Assembly: GCA_018812265.1 (NCBI GenBank)
Contig: JAHJDG010000045.1
Span: forward strand, 1-50,791
DNA length: 50,791 bases
Direction of reading: 5' to 3'
Source: a bacterium
Lineage (GTDB): Bacteria > Electryoneota > RPQS01
The notes below the pieces were generated by a model. It searched no databases. It saw only the letters and a program-made list of their open reading frames with translations, and was not told where the DNA came from. The translations under genes and the position numbers were made by a program. Shown one piece after another: positions 3,480 to 17,507 of this stretch (its first letter is position 1; each line of letters begins with the position of its first letter).

Positions 3480-4322
3480 CTACCGATTACGAGATCTTAC
3501 GGAATATCGTTTACCAATTATTTCGTACATGCGTGCCAGTTCCGGCATAGCTTTTTCCAACGCCAAAAAGTGCTTTCTTATGGTCTTCCCGTCTCCCCTC
3601 ACCGCCGGGCCGGTCATCGCTTTGCGAGGGCCGAGGCGCTCCGCGTTGTCGAGCGTCTCGTGGGCGATTGCGAAAGCCGCTTCCCGCGCGCGCTTTTCGG
3701 AAAGGCCGACCTTCTTGAGAATCTCCACCGCCGCTGCGAGGTTCGCGGCCACGAAGCCCGAGGCGAATACCGCCGAAGCGTGATAGAGAACTCGCATCTC
3801 CGCCGGAATCCGCACCGGTTTGCCGCCCAAAGCCCGCGCGAGCCGGAACGCCACCCGCACTCCGCGAGGATTCCCGTCAATCCCGAACGTCACTCCTTCG
3901 AGCCGCGCCGCCTCTCGCGAAGCCTTGGGGAACGTCTGATAGGGATGCCACGCCGCCACGCCCGCCCCTTGACCGGCCAGACTCCTTAGGATGCTGGCGT
4001 CTTGGACTCCCGAGGTGTGGAAGACGGTGATCCCCGGCCAGTCCAGAGGCAGCCGAGCAAGCTCGCGGACTGCATCCCGAATCCGGGAATCCCCCACGGC
4101 GAGAATGATAATTCCTTGAAATCTTTGAAGATGCACGGAATTCGTTACGAACTCGGCATGAACCTCACGCGCCAGTTTCCGTTCGGCGGCCCGGCTTCGC
4201 CCGACGAGGACAAGTCTCCGAAAGCCCGCCTCGCAGAGTCTCAAGGCCAGCGAGTGGCCCGCCGCGCCGAGGCCGATAATCGCAATTGGGATTCGTTTTG
4301 TGAGTGCAGGTTTCCGATCCAT
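3480..4322 (-). CDS. DUF2520 Rossmann-fold NAD(P)-binding oxidoreductase
   Basis: 280 aa. An N-terminal Rossmann dinucleotide-binding segment (IAIIGLGAAGHSLALRL, GxGxxG, residues about 12-28) is followed by VFHTSGVQDASIL and AAWHPYQTFP, typical of the Rossmann-like/DUF2520 family (COG5495), and a helical C-terminal dimerisation region of the ProC/6-phosphogluconate dehydrogenase type. Substrate unknown. Found just upstream of porX with a 44-bp gap, so they may be co-transcribed. The start ATG at 4322 lies about 75 bp from the oppositely oriented promoter at 4399-4427. Confidence 0.8.
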   Translation of the reverse strand: MDRKPALTKRIPIAIIGLGAAGHSLALRLCEAGFRRLVLVGRSRAAERKLAREVHAEFVTNSVHLQRFQGIIILAVGDSRIRDAVRELARLPLDWPGITVFHTSGVQDASILRSLAGQGAGVAAWHPYQTFPKASREAARLEGVTFGIDGNPRGVRVAFRLARALGGKPVRIPAEMRVLYHASAVFASGFVAANLAAAVEILKKVGLSEKRAREAAFAIAHETLDNAERLGPRKAMTGPAVRGDGKTIRKHFLALEKAMPELARMYEIIGKRYSVRSRNR

Positions 4323-4398
4323 CGTATAAAGGTACGGCGGACGGCTCGCAAAAGCAAGTATTTCAAGGGTGTTCCGTTTCGTTTGTGGCGGTAAATTG

Positions 4399-4427
4399 TT
4401 GACTTTGGGAGAGGGAATCGTTAAGTT
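4399..4427 (+). promoter_or_regulatory. sigma-70-type promoter
   Basis: TTGACT, a 17-nt spacer, then TAAGTT. It lies 75 bp upstream of the gene at 4502 and in the divergent spacer with the DUF2520 gene. The -35 is strong and the -10 weaker. Confidence 0.45.
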
Positions 4428-4501
4428 TTACGATACGTCTAAAAGGCCCTTTCGCATTCATCGGCCATCCCTTTCCGTCCAACCCCGGAGGTTCTTCGAT
4501 T

Positions 4502-4873
4502 ATGCTCGGCAAAGTACTGGAAGCAACGGTTCGTCTCAATGTCTATCTCCGGGAATCCGACGGCCACGTCCGCTCGATCACCGCCGACGCGTGGGGATTC
4601 AGTCAGGTCACCGGGCGAAAGGTGCTGGTCGTTCGCGATCTGCGTTCGCAGGTCGTTCACGTCCTGGGCCACGTTGTCCGCCGCTCGGAGATTCCGCAGG
4701 AGGACCTGCCGCTCATGATGCGCGCTCGCGTGGTCGAGGAGAGCGTGACGTCCTCCGGCCGCTCGGAATGGGAATTCTACCTCGAAGAAGTGGACCTTAC
4801 CACCAAGCACGCCGTCCTCCGCGGTCCGCTGATCGAGCCGGCCTCGATTGTCGGCGGAGGAATCCGCCTCTAA
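4502..4873 (+). CDS. conserved-looking small protein of unknown function
   Basis: 123 aa with no signal peptide and no cysteine. Alternating charged and hydrophobic residues suggest an all-beta fold (EATVRLNVYLRESDGH, RKVLVVRDLRSQVVHVLGHV). I do not recognise a family. It has a GGAGG ribosome-binding site 9-10 nt upstream of ATG and a candidate promoter at 4399-4427. Codon use is GC-rich like most of the window and unlike the AT-richer radical SAM genes 78 bp downstream, so it is probably not part of that locus although it points the same way. Confidence 0.6.
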   Translation: MLGKVLEATVRLNVYLRESDGHVRSITADAWGFSQVTGRKVLVVRDLRSQVVHVLGHVVRRSEIPQEDLPLMMRARVVEESVTSSGRSEWEFYLEEVDLTTKHAVLRGPLIEPASIVGGGIRL

Positions 4874-4950
4874 GACTTCTCATTCTCGGACAGTCATTGC
4901 CTGACACTGGAAGGGTGATGAGTGATGACCAATTGATTGAGGGAAACATC

Positions 4951-6357
4951 ATGAATAGTCCCCAATGTAGGAAAGGGAACGAGAAGAATCACAGTGAGCC
5001 GTCTGCAGAAGACCCCGCGCTGCTGGAACGAGATCTGTTCCTTGTTCCGCATGAGGGGCTTTTTGTTCTGTATCGCCCAATTTCGCGACTATGTGCACTG
5101 GTAGACAGCAACGTTGTTACCGATATAAGAGACCTTTTGGCCGGAGAGAAGGCCAAGGATTCTTCCCCGGCGTTGAAACGGCTGGATAGAGAAGGTTTCT
5201 TTCATCTGCCGGTTGAAGCGGAGTTCACCGCTACCGAGGAGGCTGCCGTTGATCCTGAGGCACCCTTCCGACCGCATGAAGTCACGCTGGACATTACCGG
5301 GGAGTGCAATTTGAGGTGTCTCTATTGCTACGGTTACGGCGGGGAGAAACCTCAACAGATGTCTGATCTTTGTGCGCGAGCGGCAGTGGATCTGTGCATA
5401 GGAAACTGTGAGGAGGATCGGCGCGGATTCGAATTAAATTTTCATGGAAGCGGAGAGCCAACACAGCATTTTCAATTGATGACGGAATTGGTGGGCTATG
5501 CTCGTCAGAAGACCTCGGAAAAGAATCTGCGATTGGTCACCAGCGTCGCCACCAACGGCGTTATGAGCGAAGACAAAGCCCGCTGGATTGCCAGCTACAT
5601 TGATGCTATCTCGCTTTCGATGGATGGAGATGCAGAAGCCCAGAACCGACAGCGTCCTACCGTTCGGGGTGGAGATTCGTTTGCAGCGGTGCGGCGGACG
5701 GCAGATTTTTGGAATCGCCAGGGGAAACGGTTCAATCTGCGCCTGACGATCACGCGGCTGAATGTGGAGCGACTGCAGGATATCTGTGTAAATTTGGCGC
5801 GCGAATTTCCGCAAGCATCCATCAATGTCGAACCGATGACCATCTGCGGTCGCGCCCACCAGTCGCCGGAACTTGCACCTCCACCGGACATCTTTGCCGA
5901 ACGACTGGTTGAAACCTATCGTGCATTGTCGGGAAGTGGATCGCGCGTGTACTACTCAGGAATGCGCGGATTCTCGCGAAGTCATCGGTTCTGCAGCGCC
6001 TCCACTCCGGCATTCTCGGTCATGTCAGACGGATCCGTGACGGCGTGTTTCTCCTATTCCTCCCACGAACCGATTAGGAACCTTTTCGTGTATGGAAGCT
6101 GGAACGCTTGCGACGGATGCTTTGTTTTCGATCGGGAACGAATTGCCGCACTGCGCGGACTCACGATGAGTAACGATCCCTATTGCCAAACGTGTTTTGC
6201 GAAATATCATTGTATCGGTGATTGCCCTTCAATCCGAGAGTACCGTTTGCTTGACGACAAGCGATTCGAGGAGGTTTTCGACGTGGACTTCCTTAAGAAT
6301 CGCCGCTGTCAGATCAATCGAACGGTATTGAAATTGCTTCTGCTGCAATTCCTGTAG
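4951..6357 (+). CDS. radical SAM/SPASM peptide maturase
   Basis: 468 aa from the chosen ATG, which has GAGGG about 7 nt upstream; ATG at 4918 is the alternative. The N-terminal ~105 residues resemble a peptide-recognition region. The radical SAM core begins with CNLRCLYC (C119, C123, C126, binding the SAM-cleaving [4Fe-4S] cluster) and has a GEP-like motif (FHGSGEPT). The C-terminal SPASM region has upstream cysteines (FCSAS, TACFSY, CDGCF) and a canonical C-x2-C-x5-C-x3-C at C412-C425 for auxiliary Fe-S clusters. Such enzymes install thioether or C-C crosslinks in ribosomal peptides. A Cys-rich short gene follows 30 bp downstream, making it the likely substrate. The locus is AT-richer than its neighbours, suggesting transfer. 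Confidence 0.88.
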   Translation: MNSPQCRKGNEKNHSEPSAEDPALLERDLFLVPHEGLFVLYRPISRLCALVDSNVVTDIRDLLAGEKAKDSSPALKRLDREGFFHLPVEAEFTATEEAAVDPEAPFRPHEVTLDITGECNLRCLYCYGYGGEKPQQMSDLCARAAVDLCIGNCEEDRRGFELNFHGSGEPTQHFQLMTELVGYARQKTSEKNLRLVTSVATNGVMSEDKARWIASYIDAISLSMDGDAEAQNRQRPTVRGGDSFAAVRRTADFWNRQGKRFNLRLTITRLNVERLQDICVNLAREFPQASINVEPMTICGRAHQSPELAPPPDIFAERLVETYRALSGSGSRVYYSGMRGFSRSHRFCSASTPAFSVMSDGSVTACFSYSSHEPIRNLFVYGSWNACDGCFVFDRERIAALRGLTMSNDPYCQTCFAKYHCIGDCPSIREYRLLDDKRFEEVFDVDFLKNRRCQINRTVLKLLLLQFL

Positions 6358-6387
6358 GGGAATTCAAACTGAAACAAGGAGGAGTCG

Positions 6388-6609
6388 GTGAATCCCACCT
6401 ACGAACAAACGGAGTCCGGACCGAACGATCTGGTCATCTGCGGTCCGGCCTCGAGTTCGACCGAAGCGGGTGAAGTGGTGAGCACTCATAAGATCACCAC
6501 CGCTTCCGTGAAATCCAACTTCGGAGCGCTGGAGCTCGACTTCCAGTGCAGACAGAGTTGTGTAAGTGACTGCAGTTGTGTATCTCATTGCAGTTGGATC
6601 GTCTCGTAG
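6388..6609 (+). CDS. candidate RiPP precursor peptide, Cys-rich C-terminus
   Basis: 73 aa, GTG start preceded by a strong AAGGAGGAG site, 30 bp downstream of the radical SAM maturase. Residues 1-50 form a Ser/Thr/Glu-rich leader-like region with a single Cys18. The last 20 residues hold five cysteines, C54, C58, C62, C64, C68 (C-x3-C-x3-C-x-C-x3-C), ending SWIVS. A spaced-Cys core beside a SPASM maturase is the layout of sactipeptide and ranthipeptide loci, where each Cys is bridged to another residue. The spacing differs from the classic 'six Cys in forty-five' pattern as I know it. No dedicated protease or transporter is adjacent. The product class is inferred. Confidence 0.72.
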   Translation: MNPTYEQTESGPNDLVICGPASSSTEAGEVVSTHKITTASVKSNFGALELDFQCRQSCVSDCSCVSHCSWIVS

Positions 6610-6716
6610 CATTTCCTGATGGTGTTCCGATTCTCGGTTGAAGGGCATCACCGACGCAATACTGAATCAGGAGTGCTGGATATTTGGTGTGGCAAGCGAC
6701 AATCCGAGGCAAGACT

Positions 6717-7853
6717 ATGCGCACACTTACAATCTTTTTTGCACTGTTGCTTTTCTGCCTTCCGGGAGTAGTGGCACAAAGCAACAGCACGATGCAGGCC
6801 GATTCTCTGTCCGGCCACATTCAGCAACAACTGGACAGTATCAAGCTTGAGCTTCAGGCAGCTGAGCTGCAAAGATTGGCCGAACAAACGGATACATTTC
6901 GAGGTGATGTCACTCATGTAATGGAATGGACGGTTGGCCTTATCGGAGGACTAATTGGACTGATAACGATATTCCTCGCCATCTCCGGTGTCTACTGGCT
7001 TAAAAGCCAGAGACAACTTCGCGAGGCGATAGAGGCAAAAGTCAAGGAAACTTGCACGAAAATTGAGGATAGCCTCGATACCAGCATCCATGCAATTTTT
7101 GTACAGAAGCAACAAGATGTCCGCGAATCCATAAATAAAATTGTGGAGACTCTCTCTTTGCCCGTGCCTGTAGAACAGACTTGTGAAGACGATCAGAGAA
7201 AACTGCGAAAGGTTAGCGATGAAATTCGGCGCTTGGAGCAGATGGGCGGCACATTGACTGCGAGGGATCATTTGCTGCGGGCGAGGAAATGGATGGATGA
7301 TGGGCTCTTTATGCTAGCCTTGGATGCTTACAATGCCGCTGTGACTAAAGATGAAAAATTTATGGATGCCTGGTTTGGTCAGGGATACTGTCTCCTTCAT
7401 TTAGATAGATTTGGGGAGGCAATCGAAGCCTTTGATATGGTGTTGGAGATCAAATCCGATAACTTTGAAGCGCTTTTCAACAAGGGCATCTGTTTTCTCA
7501 AGTCAAAGCTGTACAAGGAAGCTCTTGAGGCATGTAAAGAAGCACTGTGGATTAAAACTAATCATTTCGATACGCTTCTCTTGAAGGGTGGTTGTCTTGC
7601 TGAGCTGAAGGAGTATGATGATGCCATCCAAACCTTCGATATCTTGCTGAGCAGACAATCCGACGATCATAGGGTGATTTATAACAAGGCACGAGTCTAT
7701 GCAATGAAAGGAGACAAGCCAGCTATGCTGAAGGCACTTTCCGATGCTATTCGCTACAACAATGGCTATTGCAAACGGGTCAGAGCGCAGGATGGAATGT
7801 TGTTCAAGCCCTATTGGGAAGATCCTGACTTTCAAAATGTCGTCTGTACTTGA
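6717..7853 (+). CDS. secreted/membrane TPR-repeat protein
   Basis: 378 aa from the ATG at 6717, chosen because it gives a clean signal sequence (MRTLTIFFALLLFCLPGVVAQ); an upstream ATG at 6684 would mask it. A second hydrophobic segment near residues 72-95 (VGLIGGLIGLITIFLAISGVY) is a probable membrane anchor, followed by a coiled-coil stretch (about 100-180) and then four to five TPR-like repeats (for example AWFGQGYCLLHLDRFGEAIEA, ALFNKGICFLKSKLYKEALEA). TPRs usually mediate protein-protein contacts. Base composition is AT-rich like the RiPP locus just upstream, so it may have arrived with it. A link in function is unproven. Confidence 0.8.
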   Translation: MRTLTIFFALLLFCLPGVVAQSNSTMQADSLSGHIQQQLDSIKLELQAAELQRLAEQTDTFRGDVTHVMEWTVGLIGGLIGLITIFLAISGVYWLKSQRQLREAIEAKVKETCTKIEDSLDTSIHAIFVQKQQDVRESINKIVETLSLPVPVEQTCEDDQRKLRKVSDEIRRLEQMGGTLTARDHLLRARKWMDDGLFMLALDAYNAAVTKDEKFMDAWFGQGYCLLHLDRFGEAIEAFDMVLEIKSDNFEALFNKGICFLKSKLYKEALEACKEALWIKTNHFDTLLLKGGCLAELKEYDDAIQTFDILLSRQSDDHRVIYNKARVYAMKGDKPAMLKALSDAIRYNNGYCKRVRAQDGMLFKPYWEDPDFQNVVCT

Positions 7854-7978
7854 AGAAAAGGGCGAACCAGTTGGTTTCTATCCAACCCAAAATGTCTTTC
7901 CGTGTATCAAATGTATGACAAACACTGTTTTCCTCTGTTTCTGCGGGATAACCGAAACAACTTAACTACAGAGTCCCC

Positions 7979-8725
7979 ATGAAAGGTGTCATCCTCGCCG
8001 GCGGTCTGGGCACGCGACTGCTGCCCCTGACCAAGATCACGAACAAGCACTTGCTGCCCATCTACAACCAGCCCATGATCTATTACCCGATCCAGACCCT
8101 CGTCCGGGCGGGAATTGACGAGATCGTGCTGGTCACGGGCGGCCACTACGCGGGCGATTTCCTGAATCTGCTCGGCAACGGCAAAGACTTCGGCCTGCGC
8201 TTCATCAACTACGCCTATCAGGAAGGCGAAGGCGGCATCGCCGACGCGCTCCGCCTGGCCCGCATCTACACCGGCCTCGACCGGATTGCCGTCATTCTCG
8301 GCGACAACCTGCTCGAAAAGGACATCACGCAGTACGTCCGCAAGTTCGAGAAGCAGGAGAGCGGCGCCAAGATTCTGCTCAAGGAAGTGCCCGACCCGCA
8401 GCGGTTCGGCGTGGCCGAGGTGGACGAGCAGGGCCGGGTGGTGAACATCGTCGAGAAGCCCAAACGGCCCAAGACCAATCTGGCCGTGACCGGCGTCTAC
8501 ATGTACGACGAGCACGTCTATGACATCATCAACACGCTCCGTCCCTCCGAGCGCGGCGAGCTCGAGATCACCGACGTGAACAACGCCTACATCCGGCAGA
8601 GTCAGCTCACCGCCGACATCATTGACGGCTGGTGGACCGACGCGGGCACGTTTCCGTCCCTTTACCGCGCGGCTCGCCTCGTCGCCGAAAAAGTCGAACC
8701 GAAACTCAAGGATCACTGGTGCTGA
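7979..8725 (+). CDS. rmlA: glucose-1-phosphate thymidylyltransferase (short form)
   Basis: 248 aa nucleotidyltransferase. MKGVILAGGLGTRLLPLT at the N-terminus is the nucleotide-binding signature. NKHLLPIYNQPMIYYPIQTL carries the substrate and catalytic lysine region, and GDNLLEKDI the metal-binding aspartate. It makes dTDP-glucose from dTTP and glucose-1-phosphate, the first step of dTDP-L-rhamnose synthesis. It is the short type lacking the C-terminal extension of the ~290-aa enzymes. rmlD, rmlC and rmlB follow in the same direction but are separated by unrelated genes. A 7-bp tandem array begins a few bases after its stop codon. Confidence 0.9.
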   Translation: MKGVILAGGLGTRLLPLTKITNKHLLPIYNQPMIYYPIQTLVRAGIDEIVLVTGGHYAGDFLNLLGNGKDFGLRFINYAYQEGEGGIADALRLARIYTGLDRIAVILGDNLLEKDITQYVRKFEKQESGAKILLKEVPDPQRFGVAEVDEQGRVVNIVEKPKRPKTNLAVTGVYMYDEHVYDIINTLRPSERGELEITDVNNAYIRQSQLTADIIDGWWTDAGTFPSLYRAARLVAEKVEPKLKDHWC

Positions 8726-8731
8726 AGGAAA

Positions 8732-8773
8732 CGATGAACGATGAGAGATAAACGATGCATAAGAGACGATGAA
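8732..8773 (+). repeat. 7-bp tandem array following the rmlA stop codon
   Basis: Heptamers CGATGAA, CGATGAG, AGATAAA, CGATGCA, TAAGAGA, CGATGAA, starting 7 bp after the rmlA stop, in the sense direction of rmlA. Same consensus and same position relative to the gene as the array after porX (1823-1878). Confidence 0.75.
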
Positions 8774-11295: not shown

Positions 11296-12831
11296 ATGCA
11301 ACGAGCGCAAACACGCGACAACGTTAGAAATGAACTAAAGGAGAAGGTAGCACGCCGGAATTATAGCTGTTATCTCCTTCGTGTCACACTGAAACGTGTA
11401 CGTGGATTCGTTGACAAGACAGTCTCGTTTGACTTTCCTGTCACCGCTCTTGTTGGACCTAATGGTGGCGGCAAGACAACGATTATGGCGGCCGCTAGTA
11501 CGCCGTACAGAGCGGTAAGACCACGAACGTTCTTCCCAAAGAACGGGTACTTTGACAGAAGTATGGGAGGTTGGGCAATAGAGGCCGAGTGTGTCGACAA
11601 GTCATTAGACAGAGAGGGGACAGTCAGGCGATCCGCTAGGTTCAGGACTAATCGGTGGCGACGAGATGCATTGGCGCGAGATGTTCTTGTTTTTGGTATC
11701 GAGCGAACCATCCCACTGAACGAAAGAGAGGGGTTTGCTTGGAAGCGAATGTCTACGTTCACGCCAAGAGATGGGGATGTTTCTGACCTTGACGGATTAG
11801 TTGCCGTCCATGCGCAAGCTGTACTCGATATGCCGATTCAAGGATATAAGGCAATCGGCGGAATCAATATTTTTGGCGGGCGCTATGTAACACTTCTCGG
11901 CGGTCAGACTTCCTCAGGAGATAGTTATTCAGAGTTTCATTTTGGAGCCGGTCAATCGAGCGTAATCCGCATGATTTGTCAGATTGAACAGCTTCCTGAG
12001 AACTCACTGGTGCTTATTGAAGAGATCGAAAATGGCCTTCATCCTCTCGCTACCGTGCGCATGGTGGACTACTTGATTGACTTCGCACGTCGGAAGAAGA
12101 GTCAAGTCATCTTTACAACGCATTCTAATGACGCTCTGGAACCACTACCCCCAGAGGCAATATGGGTAGCCATTGACAATAATATTCTTCAGGGAAAACC
12201 GGATATTAGAGCACTCAAAGCTATCCAAGGCTATGCTGAATCTCCCGGTATCATTTTTGTAGAAGACGATTTTGCGCATGCGTGGGTTAGTGGGATTCTG
12301 CGTTACTCAACGGATGCAATCCTAAGAGCTCTTGATGTATATGCTATGAAAGGGGACTCTCTTGCTGTTGAAGCCAACAAGCATCACAATAGAGATCCGA
12401 GTATTACAGCGCGATCAATATGCTTGTTGGATGGAGATTCTCAGCAATCAGATGATCCCGATAGTGGTGTATTGCGTTTGCCAGGTGCGTGCCCCGAAAG
12501 GTACGTTTTCGATTCAGTTATGGAGAAGGTGCCAGATAACGTGGAACTGTTTTGTCTTGCCCTGCAGCAGAATGCAGAAGGGGCAGAACAAATAATCGAA
12601 GAATGTCGGCGGGTTGCCCGCACAAATACAGATCATCACATTCTCTTTGCGCAGGTTGGGGAAGAAATAGGTGGACTCTCACAAGAATCTACTCAAGATG
12701 CATTCATTGGTTTGTGGTGTAAATTCTACCCCGATGAAACGGCCGCAATGTTGCAACAGATCCGGACTGCCCTGAGTGCACTGCCAATTTCAAATTCCCA
12801 AAGTCATGGAACTGTTGGATTGCCACTTTAG
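11296..12831 (+). CDS. OLD-like AAA ATPase with C-terminal TOPRIM-like region
   Basis: 511 aa. The ABC/SMC-type ATPase core has Walker A GPNGGGKTT (54-62), a signature-like FGAGQSS, Walker B LVLIEEIENGLHP (about 236-248) and a switch histidine in FTTHSND. The C-terminal part has an acidic FVEDDFAHAW and a LLDGDS motif, matching the E...DxD pattern of TOPRIM nuclease domains in OLD-family proteins. OLD proteins act in phage defence alone or with a UvrD-like helicase (Gabija), but no helicase is adjacent. The gene is visibly AT-richer than rmlD and rmlC around it, indicating recent acquisition. Start ATG is ordinary, with no strong ribosome-binding site. Defence role is inferred. Confidence 0.75.
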   Translation: MQRAQTRDNVRNELKEKVARRNYSCYLLRVTLKRVRGFVDKTVSFDFPVTALVGPNGGGKTTIMAAASTPYRAVRPRTFFPKNGYFDRSMGGWAIEAECVDKSLDREGTVRRSARFRTNRWRRDALARDVLVFGIERTIPLNEREGFAWKRMSTFTPRDGDVSDLDGLVAVHAQAVLDMPIQGYKAIGGINIFGGRYVTLLGGQTSSGDSYSEFHFGAGQSSVIRMICQIEQLPENSLVLIEEIENGLHPLATVRMVDYLIDFARRKKSQVIFTTHSNDALEPLPPEAIWVAIDNNILQGKPDIRALKAIQGYAESPGIIFVEDDFAHAWVSGILRYSTDAILRALDVYAMKGDSLAVEANKHHNRDPSITARSICLLDGDSQQSDDPDSGVLRLPGACPERYVFDSVMEKVPDNVELFCLALQQNAEGAEQIIEECRRVARTNTDHHILFAQVGEEIGGLSQESTQDAFIGLWCKFYPDETAAMLQQIRTALSALPISNSQSHGTVGLPL

Positions 12832-13476: not shown

Positions 13477-14055
13477 ATGTCCGATCCCGACCCATATATA
13501 ATAGGCAACGGCCCCACCAACGACGACGTCGAACGGCGGACGTGGAATTGGTTTGCCGCGGCGGTGGCCACGCAGTTCGGTCCCGCGCACTATCAGGTGG
13601 TCTATCCGCCCGAGGGCGATCTCTGGCCGGACGTTACGGCCGTGCGCGCGCACGAGCGGGTCGGATTCGAAATCACCTCGCCGCTGCGTCCCGAAGACGT
13701 GGTGAAGAAACCCAACCACAACAGCGAGGATGACGAAACGGCCACGCCGCAAGCGCGGCTCGAGCGGCGCGTGATGGAGGCGGTGAAACGCAAGATCAAG
13801 AAGTACGGCAACAAGCCCTCCGACTTCCCGCTCGGTTTGCTCGTGACTCTGGCCCATCCGTCCAGCCAGAAGTTTTCGCAATCGGAAATTGATCTTACGC
13901 ATCTTTCGCAAGTGGTGAAGAGCCGTTTGGGCCATCTCATTCATCAACCGATTGATGCGGTGTATCTGGTCGGCCCCGGCGCGCGCGCGCACCTGCTCTG
14001 GCGACGCCGCGGTTCCAAGTGGAAGAAGCTGTTTCCGGAATTGGATACTGTATGA
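13477..14055 (+). CDS. 192-aa protein coupled to a DNA methyltransferase; possible restriction endonuclease
   Basis: 192 aa of unknown family. Its stop overlaps the ATG of the downstream methyltransferase (ATGA, 14052-14055), so the two are translationally coupled. Residues 48-69 read PPEGDLWPDVTAV followed by VGFEITSP, a PD...(D/E)-x-T arrangement reminiscent of PD-(D/E)XK nucleases with Thr in place of Lys. The C-terminal half is basic (RRRGSKWKK). It could be the restriction partner of the methyltransferase, but the motif is weak and I recognise no homologue. Codon use is GC-rich like the host. The start ATG lies just after the heptamer array. Confidence 0.6.
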   Translation: MSDPDPYIIGNGPTNDDVERRTWNWFAAAVATQFGPAHYQVVYPPEGDLWPDVTAVRAHERVGFEITSPLRPEDVVKKPNHNSEDDETATPQARLERRVMEAVKRKIKKYGNKPSDFPLGLLVTLAHPSSQKFSQSEIDLTHLSQVVKSRLGHLIHQPIDAVYLVGPGARAHLLWRRRGSKWKKLFPELDTV

Positions 14056-15098
14056 TAACGACCACTCATAAGATTATCATTGGCGATGCAAGGCGCATGA
14101 GTCTGGTGGACTCGGAGTCCGTGCATCTTGTCATCACTTCGCCGCCTTACTGGCAACTCAAAGACTATGGCGTAGCGGGGCAAATCGGCTTTGACGACAC
14201 CTACGAAGACTATATCAACAATCTCAACTTGGTTTGGCAGGAATGCGATCGCGTGTTGAAGCCGGGTTGCCGGTTGTGCATCAACATCGGCGATCAGTTC
14301 GCACGCTCGGTTTACTATGGCCGTTACAAAGTCATTCCCATCCGCACCGAAATCATCAAGTTCTGCGAGGCGATCGGGCTGGACTACATGGGCGCGGTCA
14401 TCTGGCAGAAAGTCACCACCACCAACACCACCGGCGGCGCGACGATTATGGGTTCGTTCCCCTATCCGCGTAACGGCATTTTGAAGTTGGACTATGAATT
14501 CATTCTGCTCTTCAAGAAATTGGGTGAGCCGCCGAAAGTCTCCGTTCGAGTGAAAGAACAGGCGAAGCTGACCACCGAGGAGTGGAACACGTATTTCGCT
14601 GGACATTGGAACTTTCCCGGTGAAAAGCAGGAAGGCCATATCGCGAGATTTCCCGTTGAACTTCCCCACCGTCTAATCCGCATGTTCTCGTTTCCGGGCG
14701 AGACCGTACTCGATCCGTTCACGGGAAGCGGAACGACGAATGTGGCGGCGGCTCGCTTGACAAGAAACTCCATCGGCATCGAGGTCAATCCCGATTTCGC
14801 GGCGTTGGCCTCTAAACGACTCGAGAAAGAGCGCTCATTGGTCACCGACTTTGAGCATACATTCGAGAAGTTTCCTCCCTTGCGCACCGCCGAAATCAAG
14901 AAGCTGCATGAAGAGCTTTCCTTTCCCTTTCACGACTGCGTCCGGATCAACAAGAAAACCGATCCGCGCAAGTTGCTGTTTGGGAGTAAGATTACGGGGA
15001 AGGAGACAAGAAATGAGCTCCTCGGATATTCTCTCTGTAGAGACGATGCTGCTGAAGGGCACGATGGTCAGCCGGTGATCATTCAGAAGGGTAGGTGA
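14052..15098 (+). CDS. site-specific DNA methyltransferase, beta-class order
   Basis: 348 aa. Start chosen at the ATG overlapping the upstream stop. Catalytic motif IV (LVITSPPYWQLKDYG, about residue 30) comes before the SAM-binding FxGxG motif (VLDPFTGSGTTNVAAARL, about 217-234), the beta-class order of N4-cytosine or N6-adenine amino-methyltransferases. SPPY is commoner in N4-cytosine enzymes. The target-recognition region lies between the motifs (IWQKVTTTNTTGG). It is coupled to the 192-aa protein and its stop is followed at once by a second methyltransferase. Recognition sequence cannot be read from sequence. Confidence 0.85.
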   Translation: MITTTHKIIIGDARRMSLVDSESVHLVITSPPYWQLKDYGVAGQIGFDDTYEDYINNLNLVWQECDRVLKPGCRLCINIGDQFARSVYYGRYKVIPIRTEIIKFCEAIGLDYMGAVIWQKVTTTNTTGGATIMGSFPYPRNGILKLDYEFILLFKKLGEPPKVSVRVKEQAKLTTEEWNTYFAGHWNFPGEKQEGHIARFPVELPHRLIRMFSFPGETVLDPFTGSGTTNVAAARLTRNSIGIEVNPDFAALASKRLEKERSLVTDFEHTFEKFPPLRTAEIKKLHEELSFPFHDCVRINKKTDPRKLLFGSKITGKETRNELLGYSLCRDDAAEGHDGQPVIIQKGR

Positions 15099-15103
15099 TC
15101 ATA

Positions 15104-16555
15104 ATGTCGCAAATCAACCTGCTAGGATATGAAACTCGCGTCAGCGAGGAACATTCGGTGGCAGTGGAGGTACAGCAGATAGCCGACCTCGACAGGCAGC
15201 TACTCGACCGTTTTCGTAACCGGTTAAGTATAGAGGGTGACCTAACACGGCAAATCGTGAGTTTCCAAGCGAACAAGGAGCGCCCACGATATAGATGGTT
15301 CAAATATAAAGAGGCGTTTTCGGTTTCGCTGGTTGACTATCTGTTGCGGCGCTTCTCCATCAAGAATGGAGTGGTGTTGGATCCTTTTGCCGGAATGGGT
15401 ACCACTCTTTTTGCAGTTGGTAACCACGGCATTGAATGTCATGGAATTGAACTGCTCCCAATCGGACAAGAGATCATCGAGAGCAGGCTTCTCTTGGAAA
15501 AGGGGCTGTCATCGGAAGAACTTGATTTGATTGATAAGTGGAGCCGCACCAAACCATGGAGACACTCGAAGGCGCGGGCCACCCTTTCAGAACTACGCAT
15601 TACAAAGGGAGCTTATCCTCCCGAGACTATTGCAGCCATTGAGCGAGTACTAGCCGCCGCCCAATCACAAGGTCAGCGGTTACAACGCGTTCTCAGATTT
15701 GCCTTGCTGTGCGTACTGGAGAATGTCAGCTACACACGCAAGGATGGACAGTATTTACGCTGGGATTATCGATCAGGTCGTCGCCAAGGGAACAAGCCCT
15801 TTGACAAGGGTGTCGTGGCAGGTTTTGATGAGGCGTATAGCCGCAAGCTGGTCGAGATCATGGATGACATCGCATACAGAGGCGGTTGCCGAGAGCTTTT
15901 TGAGTCGAAGATGACTGAGCCGCATGTGCGGCTCATGCACGGCTCATGTCTTGAGATCATGCCTACACTCGGCTCCGGAACATATTCTGCCGTTATAACT
16001 TCCCCGCCATATTGCAATCGTTATGATTACACTCGAACCTATGCCCTAGAATTGGCACTGCTCGGTATCGGCGAGCAGGAGTTGATGGCTCTCCGCCAGC
16101 AAATGCTAACCTGTACTGTAGAAAACAGAGCCAAGGACCTGATGACTAACTCTGCGTGGCAGATGGCGATTCGGGCGACAGATGAACAGCCCCTGCTACA
16201 GGCCATACTCGCCTATCTCGATGCTCAGCGCATACAAGGACGTCTTAATAACAGTGGCATTCCCCGCATGGTGAGGGGATACTTTTATGAGATGGCATGT
16301 GTAATCGCCGAGTGCGCACGACTCTTGGCCGACAGCGGATCAGTGATTATGGTAAACGACAATGTGCGATACGCTGGAGTACCGATTTCCGTTGATCTGA
16401 TCTTGTCGGAAATTGCGCGGGCGTGTGGCCTGGATACAGATGCTATACTCGTCCTCCCCAACGGCAAGGGGAATAGCAGCCAACAAATGGGCGAACATGG
16501 CCGAGAGCCATTACGGAAGTGCGTATACGTTTGGAGGAAGAGCCATGCCCACTAG
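15104..16555 (+). CDS. AvaI-type DNA methyltransferase (predicted CYCGRG)
   Basis: 483 aa from ATG 15104, which has an AGGTG site 5-8 nt upstream; a GTG at 15095 overlapping the previous stop is the alternative. The SAM-binding motif [17 protein letters not shown] (about 85-101) precedes the catalytic [20 protein letters not shown] (about 295), so motif order is opposite to the upstream enzyme. Length and motifs fit the M.AvaI-like amino-methyltransferases, probably N4-cytosine. Its end overlaps the AvaI-type endonuclease gene by 11 bp, so it is the protective partner. Assignment to CYCGRG rests on the endonuclease next door. Confidence 0.82.
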
Positions 16556-17507
16556 GCGACCAGCATTCGCGAATCATCTGAAGACCAGCAGAGATTTGAT
16601 CACATCTTACGAAGAGGTCCGCGCAGGGTTTGTGGCCTTGGCCTTGGAACGAAATCGGCGAGCGACTCCATACGTCGAAGAAGCCCGCGCACTCAAGACA
16701 GCTGCTGAGACAGCTAATGGTCCTGGAGATCTGCTGAAAATGAAAGCCATCAGGGCGGCCTTGGTCACTGCCGCTGGTGTATCCGACAAGGCAGCAAACC
16801 ATCTGACGGATAAAGATAAGACGGACGCAATAAAGGAGCTGATTGTTAACTTTCTTGAACCGGCTGGCGCCAAGTTTGTTGAGGAACTTGTGTTCAGGTT
16901 TCTCCTCACGCGAGGTGACACTTTGGGCGGCTCAATGCGAAACATCGGCGGGGCGTTGGCACAGCGGAGGCTAACTCGTGCCGTCATTGCCGCGCTCTCT
17001 ATTGGTGGGATAGCCTATTCGTGGCTGGATACCAGAACCGACAAGTGGATTAAGGCATCGGAGGACGATTCCGACATCGAAATGTATCTCCGCGCGCCTC
17101 ATTGGAAGCGTTCGGACGGTGAATCGAGAATCATACAGTATAATTTGACTGTGCCCATTGTTGGCAACAACGTTGATCTTTGTCTCCTGAAGGGAACCAC
17201 ACAGGATCTGAAGAAAGCTGTATCTGACCCTCAGGCGTATGTCGCCTTTGGGGAGCTTAAGGGAGGAATTGATCCTGCAGGAGCTGACGAGCACTGGAAA
17301 ACAGCTCGCTCGGCACTGAACCGAATCAGAGAAGCCTTCGATAAGCTCAAACTGTACCCGATGACCTTTTTCGTCGGTGCGGCAATCGAGAAGCGTATGG
17401 CTGAAGAGATATGGATCGATCTGAAGAAAGGTAAACTTAGCAATGCTGCAAATCTGACAGGGTCAAAACAGCTATCATCTCTGTGTAATTGGCTCATTAG
17501 CCTTTGA
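16545..17507 (+). CDS. type II restriction endonuclease, AvaI/BsoBI family (predicted C^YCGRG)
   Basis: 320 aa from ATG 16545 (GGAGGAAGAGCC upstream; earlier in-frame ATGs lie inside the methyltransferase). From memory of AvaI and BsoBI the whole length matches, beginning with [20 protein letters not shown] and including [20 protein letters not shown]. The BsoBI catalytic residues have counterparts with the expected spacing: D211 (NVDLCL), E237 and K239 (GELKGG), and H250 (GADEHW, 11 residues after the Lys as in BsoBI D212/E240/K242/H253). AvaI and BsoBI cut CYCGRG. Overlaps its methyltransferase by 11 bp. Mildly AT-richer than host genes, so probably acquired as a unit. Confidence 0.9.

Follow-up and report, generated by a model that had tools for sequence, protein, structure and literature searches.

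SPASM maturases cleave SAM, and the radical so formed takes a hydrogen from an acceptor residue, after which a Cys sulfur closes the thioether; ranthipeptide maturases serve as cross-linking tools. Non-alpha thioethers are the products of maturases that group with QhpD, CteB and PapB among them (PMC11002830). In the freyrasin system, PapA carries six C-x3-D/E motifs, and PapB acts on Cys-x3-Asp/Glu but also accepts other spacings (PMC9413430). Two such systems, PapA/PapB and SCIFF/CteB (thermocellin), are the closest in likeness to the locus described here, which lies in a window of 50,791 nucleotides (the whole stretch of DNA that was analysed). The following features were identified.

4951..6357, + strand: radical SAM/SPASM peptide maturase, 468 aa (Pfam Radical_SAM, conserved cluster Cys, AF2 core)
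6376..6384, + strand: Shine-Dalgarno AAGGAGGAG of the peptide ORF (sequence)
6388..6609, + strand: 73-aa candidate precursor peptide, GTG start (ORF, Cys density)
6541..6606, + strand: Cys-rich core FQCRQSCVSDCSCVSHCSWIVS (only such ORF in the window)
6556..6591, + strand: 18-nt tandem duplication, SCVSDC/SCVSHC, with a hexapeptide C-x3-C-x unit (repeat search, 78% identity)
6717..7853, + strand: TPR protein with a signal-peptide-like start and a membrane-like stretch (Pfam TPR families; inside the variable segment)
4876..7975, no strand: strain-variable cassette of maturase, peptide and TPR gene (replaced by 479 bp in genus-mate G001)

The maturase and peptide are probably a leader-guided radical SAM/SPASM enzyme and its 73-aa substrate, with thioethers of the ranthipeptide type. 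An earlier note on this DNA had seen the logic of a thioether-crosslinked peptide and a candidate new RiPP. This is still the best reading, with PapB and SCIFF as the nearest families, CteB as the nearest structure and Cys-rich partners beside most relatives, but what was said about Cys spacing and distribution is corrected below.

The maturase

The enzyme, which could instead start at an in-frame ATG at 4918, matches Pfam Radical_SAM above the cut-off. Its radical SAM motif is CNLRCLYC (CX3CX2C), and its SPASM Cys pattern is C-x12-G-x4-C, C-x2-C-x5-C-x3-C and a final C. All three radical SAM Cys and all seven SPASM Cys are invariant or nearly so among 13 aligned relatives, and the same cluster Cys (3+7) are kept in another set of 19, most of them sequences from viral contigs. 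The motifs from which a SPASM radical SAM enzyme had been recognised, CNLRCLYC and C-x2-C-x5-C-x3-C, are both present and conserved. A reading as a prokaryotic viperin (PADLOC pVip) or other defence enzyme was rejected: there is a weak superfamily match only, and viperin-type enzymes have no SPASM region whereas this one does.

Among the NCBIfam models, PapB (NF047865) matches best, at 114 bits against a cut-off of 340, followed by SCIFF (TIGR03974; 101 against 425), nif11-type (95), QhpD (TIGR03906; 73 against 453) and DynA (72), every one far short of its cut-off. CcpM (68), CXXX-repeat (60) and Cys-every-fifth (CefB; 47) are well below theirs, and YhhB (49), StsB (42) and RumMC (41) also match. 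PapB, SCIFF and QhpD are matched by all 13 aligned relatives, PapB with the best E-value. CteB is the top solved structure by sequence profile (E 1.4e-60) and the top fold match (Foldseek with the AF2 model, E 7.7e-19); SkfB is also among the profile and fold matches. The model is confident for approximately residues 110-290 and for a large part of the SPASM region, and N-terminal residues 1-99 have low pLDDT. No PqqD domain was found in the maturase by Pfam, nor by hhalign against a real PqqD domain. The relative in G142 has a clear PqqD domain at its C-terminus, which the N-terminal region of the window maturase does not resemble.

The candidate precursor

The peptide ORF begins 30 bp after the maturase stop and is preceded by AAGGAGGAG. 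Its core sequence is CRQSCVSDCSCVSHC, with Cys at residues 54, 58, 62, 64 and 68 (C-x3-C-x3-C-x-C-x3-C; five Cys in 15 residues), and a lone Cys18 lies in the putative leader. The earlier note had described just this arrangement, a 73-aa peptide 30 bp downstream with a strong ribosome-binding site and a C-terminal core of this pattern, and its coordinates and Cys positions agree with those found here. At least five Cys in 17 residues are found in one of the 401 window ORFs of at least 40 aa, namely this peptide. In Markov-shuffled DNA, 18 of 11,615 ORFs reach that density and none has the exact pattern of the peptide. The codon-position bias of the ORF itself is weak. Because of the 18-nt tandem repeat at 6556-6591, growth of the core by duplication of the hexapeptide SCVS[DH]C is suggested.

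A search of 38 other genomes from the phylum turned up no credible homologue of the precursor. The best match, in G019, is antisense to another gene, and the other two contain internal stops. Likewise, a genome-wide search for further C-x3-C-x-C-x3-C peptides gave none that are credible besides the window's own. Elsewhere in the genome (L153, G000 C203, 11066-13180), an exported beta-helix protein carries the Cys cluster CAMWCDTCPNNCSDSCSCQCMC; it might be another Cys-rich target, or its Cys might just form disulfides.

Comparison with described systems

The SPASM auxiliary-cluster Cys and the adjacent Cys-rich precursor of the ranthipeptide class are both present at this locus. PapA/PapB likewise pairs a SPASM radical SAM maturase with a Cys-rich partner. 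Unlike PapA, however, the window core has no C-x3-D/E motifs, with one Asp (as C-x2-D) and no Glu. SCIFF/CteB also has a Cys-rich substrate, yet SCIFF spreads six Cys over forty-five residues where the window peptide has five core Cys in 15; the window core lacks a Thr acceptor, and the host is not clostridial. QhpD, the quinohemoprotein amine dehydrogenase maturase, is a SPASM thioether former, but it belongs to a separate clade and no dehydrogenase subunits adjoin the window maturase. The CXXX-repeat, CefB and CcpM maturases share the logic of a maturase with a repeated-Cys peptide, although their Cys period, judged by family names only, differs from that of the window.

It is inferred that the 73-aa peptide is the substrate. 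The maturase would bind its N-terminal ~50 residues and cleave SAM, and the resulting 5′-deoxyadenosyl radical would abstract hydrogen from putative acceptors within the C-terminal core. At least one of the five Cys there would then be joined to these acceptors by bonds predicted to be thioethers, with a loss of 2 Da (-2 Da) for each; as in ranthipeptides, they would most likely be at non-alpha carbons. The core may be a short version of the hexapeptide repeat (C-x3-C-x) used across much of the maturase clade. As the core holds one Asp and no Glu, Thr or Asn, most acceptors must be residues of other kinds, unless few cross-links form, and simple PapB (C-x3-D) chemistry is impossible. For a clade outside all named NCBIfam models, cross-linking of such interleaved Cys where the customary acidic acceptors are nearly missing would mean a new acceptor rule.

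Relatives and their partner proteins

No close homologue of the maturase was found in the 38 other genomes of the phylum, and a GTDB genome scan with it yielded nothing but a distant locus in Paenibacillus. Members of the clade are found in Pseudomonadota and Chloroflexota, with some on plasmids in both, and in several unnamed phyla as well. In a review, sactipeptide-type clusters are listed for Proteobacteria and Thermotogae (PMC8172795). Together, that review and these relatives make it an overstatement to call the class little known beyond Firmicutes and Actinobacteria. In the tree, the clade stands apart from the QhpD, NlpM, sactipeptide-type and CxxC-repeat-associated maturases at 100/99 support (91/96 in an earlier, smaller sampling); branching within it is poorly resolved and branches are long. 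It is unnamed and lies outside every named NCBIfam model.

Homologous maturases lacking a Cys-rich partner had been named in advance as evidence against the thioether reading. Most relatives have one: Cys-rich ORFs adjoin the maturases in G142, the Methylocystis plasmid, the Caballeronia plasmid, G130, G445, L056, L057 and the second Chlorohelix copy. In G445, several tandem peptides follow the maturase, three of which share an MTISE[IV]IE leader. No such partner is present in G160, the first Chlorohelix copy or G071 (at a contig end), and in G100 there is only a four-Cys 61-aa ORF two genes off; this check thus goes in part against the thioether reading.

The earlier note had found the Cys spacing unfamiliar, yet it recurs in partners within the same clade, including those on a phage-type contig and a Chloroflexota plasmid. 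In a shuffle test, counting at most three CxC/Cx3C junctions per peptide, the clade partners have 15 against 3.3 expected (p=0.0002) and partners outside the clade 1 against 3.6 expected, by a statistic devised after the data were viewed and with counts inflated by duplicated units. A second Chlorohelix maturase, found after the statistic, fits (p=5e-5); its neighbour has a Tat-like start and the tail CVCNCVAGTSSCNPNCTCNLICTCDAQCTCQSYC. The junction is absent from the G142 and Caballeronia partners. Matches in a scan of viral contigs for (CxCx3)4 were saturated by low-complexity DNA.

It is suggestive, from these sequence comparisons, that a C-x-C-x3 rhythm is common to free peptides, exported proteins and phage-tail-region proteins. 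A wider proposal is rather doubtful: that the scattered clade recognises this one hexapeptide rhythm and puts a shared cross-linked scaffold on free peptides, Tat-type exported tails (Chlorohelix, and Caballeronia by analogy) and phage-tail-region proteins, as a portable, repeat-based module for covalent stiffening and not a bacteriocin pathway. If true, the shared rhythm would carry radical SAM cross-linking beyond small natural products and into structural protein tails.

Several further loci were recorded. On viral-collection contigs L057 (120-3811), L056 (152-3667) and L106 (1305-3793), SPASM maturases lie directly after Cys-rich ORFs; in L057 a gp25 baseplate gene and a phage-tail-repeat gene precede the partner, and L056 encodes a Hint-like protein with CTCDLNCASDGGCC. 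It may be that maturases act on phage tail proteins. No new distinct maturases close to those of L056, L057 and L015 were found in the viral collection. Other maturases in it (L059, L076, L089 and L094) have long CxxC-repeat partners (CQICYSCQVCNTC...) and form a separate clade. On the Chlorohelix plasmid (L139, 1376-5255), two proteins with Tat-like starts, one of them WD40, carry C-terminal CxC tails beside a clade maturase. Edwardsiella (L010, 3752-8413) and Salmonella (L012, 4025-8404) plasmids contain genes for a maturase, a 57-59-aa peptide, an ABC transporter and an S8 peptidase; the peptides have a Gly-rich tail with no more than a CC pair, and the loci resemble a complete unnamed RiPP cluster.

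Alternative explanations

It is unlikely that the peptide is a sactipeptide, in which the same enzyme would make alpha-carbon thioethers within a hairpin, as in subtilosin or ruminococcin. A Cys-rich core with a SPASM enzyme would suit this, and the sactisynthases StsB, RumMC and SkfB, of the same superfamily, do match. However, the StsB and RumMC scores are far below those of PapB, SCIFF and QhpD, so the closest similarity is not to sactipeptide maturases, and the Cys are interleaved through the core instead of being opposed to a separate acceptor strand.

Modification of residues other than Cys, such as a C-C or Trp-linked ring at the terminal CSW, with the Cys binding metal or forming disulfides, is also improbable. 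A Trp does follow closely after the last core Cys, the cyclophane-type maturases DynA and YhhB are among the matches, and acceptor composition varies much among the clade partners. What these partners share, though, is Cys spacing and no common aromatic motif, and the best families and the fold are those of thioether formers.

A QhpD-like role is still harder to credit. Here the peptide would be no free natural product but belong to a larger complex as a small subunit or tail, where its cross-links would serve structural stability or the formation of a cofactor. The QhpD match is consistent with this, as are clade members that adjoin exported proteins with Cys-rich tails (Chlorohelix, Caballeronia) or phage tail genes, but dehydrogenase subunits are absent nearby and the partner stands alone as a 73-aa ORF that has no obvious signal sequence. 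Finally, despite the weak codon bias and the lack of a homologue in the 38 phylum genomes, it is very improbable that the ORF is a chance reading frame with the true substrate elsewhere, given its strong Shine-Dalgarno, 30-bp spacing, unique Cys density, Cys spacing shared with relatives' partner peptides and the lack of another credible short Cys-rich ORF of that pattern in the genome.

Genomic context of the cassette

Contig C170 of G001 aligns to 4310-4875 (79% identity) and 7976-8762 (91%) of the window, with 479 bp between these regions where the window has 3,100 bp. The shorter segment encodes a 23S-rRNA-intervening-sequence-type protein, and G006, G008 and G009 have about 500 bp at the site. 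As the flanking genes in G001 enclose only 479 bp, the maturase, peptide and TPR genes have, to judge from these alignments, recently been gained or swapped in here.

The GC content of the 3.1-kb cassette is 49.8%, against 59% in both flanks. The locus had been called AT-richer than its surroundings; the cassette does dip, but mainly through the TPR gene (46%), the maturase (53%) and peptide (55%) being only mildly different. As had been noted, no protease or exporter adjoins the locus, nor did a search of the whole genome reveal a C39 peptidase. No TPR gene was noticed beside the relatives' maturases at the loci inspected. An Rfam search gave no matches, and a scan for promoters and terminators gave chance-level hits only.

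Also in the window, an AT-rich ATPase of the candidate defence family HEC-04 (611 bits) is encoded at 11296-12831 between rmlD-like and rmlC-like genes, and two DNA methyltransferases with a BsoBI-type restriction enzyme are encoded at 14019-17507 in the dTDP-sugar locus. Since this neighbouring dTDP-sugar locus holds the HEC-04 ATPase and the BsoBI-type restriction system, it and the cassette site together look like a variable hot spot.
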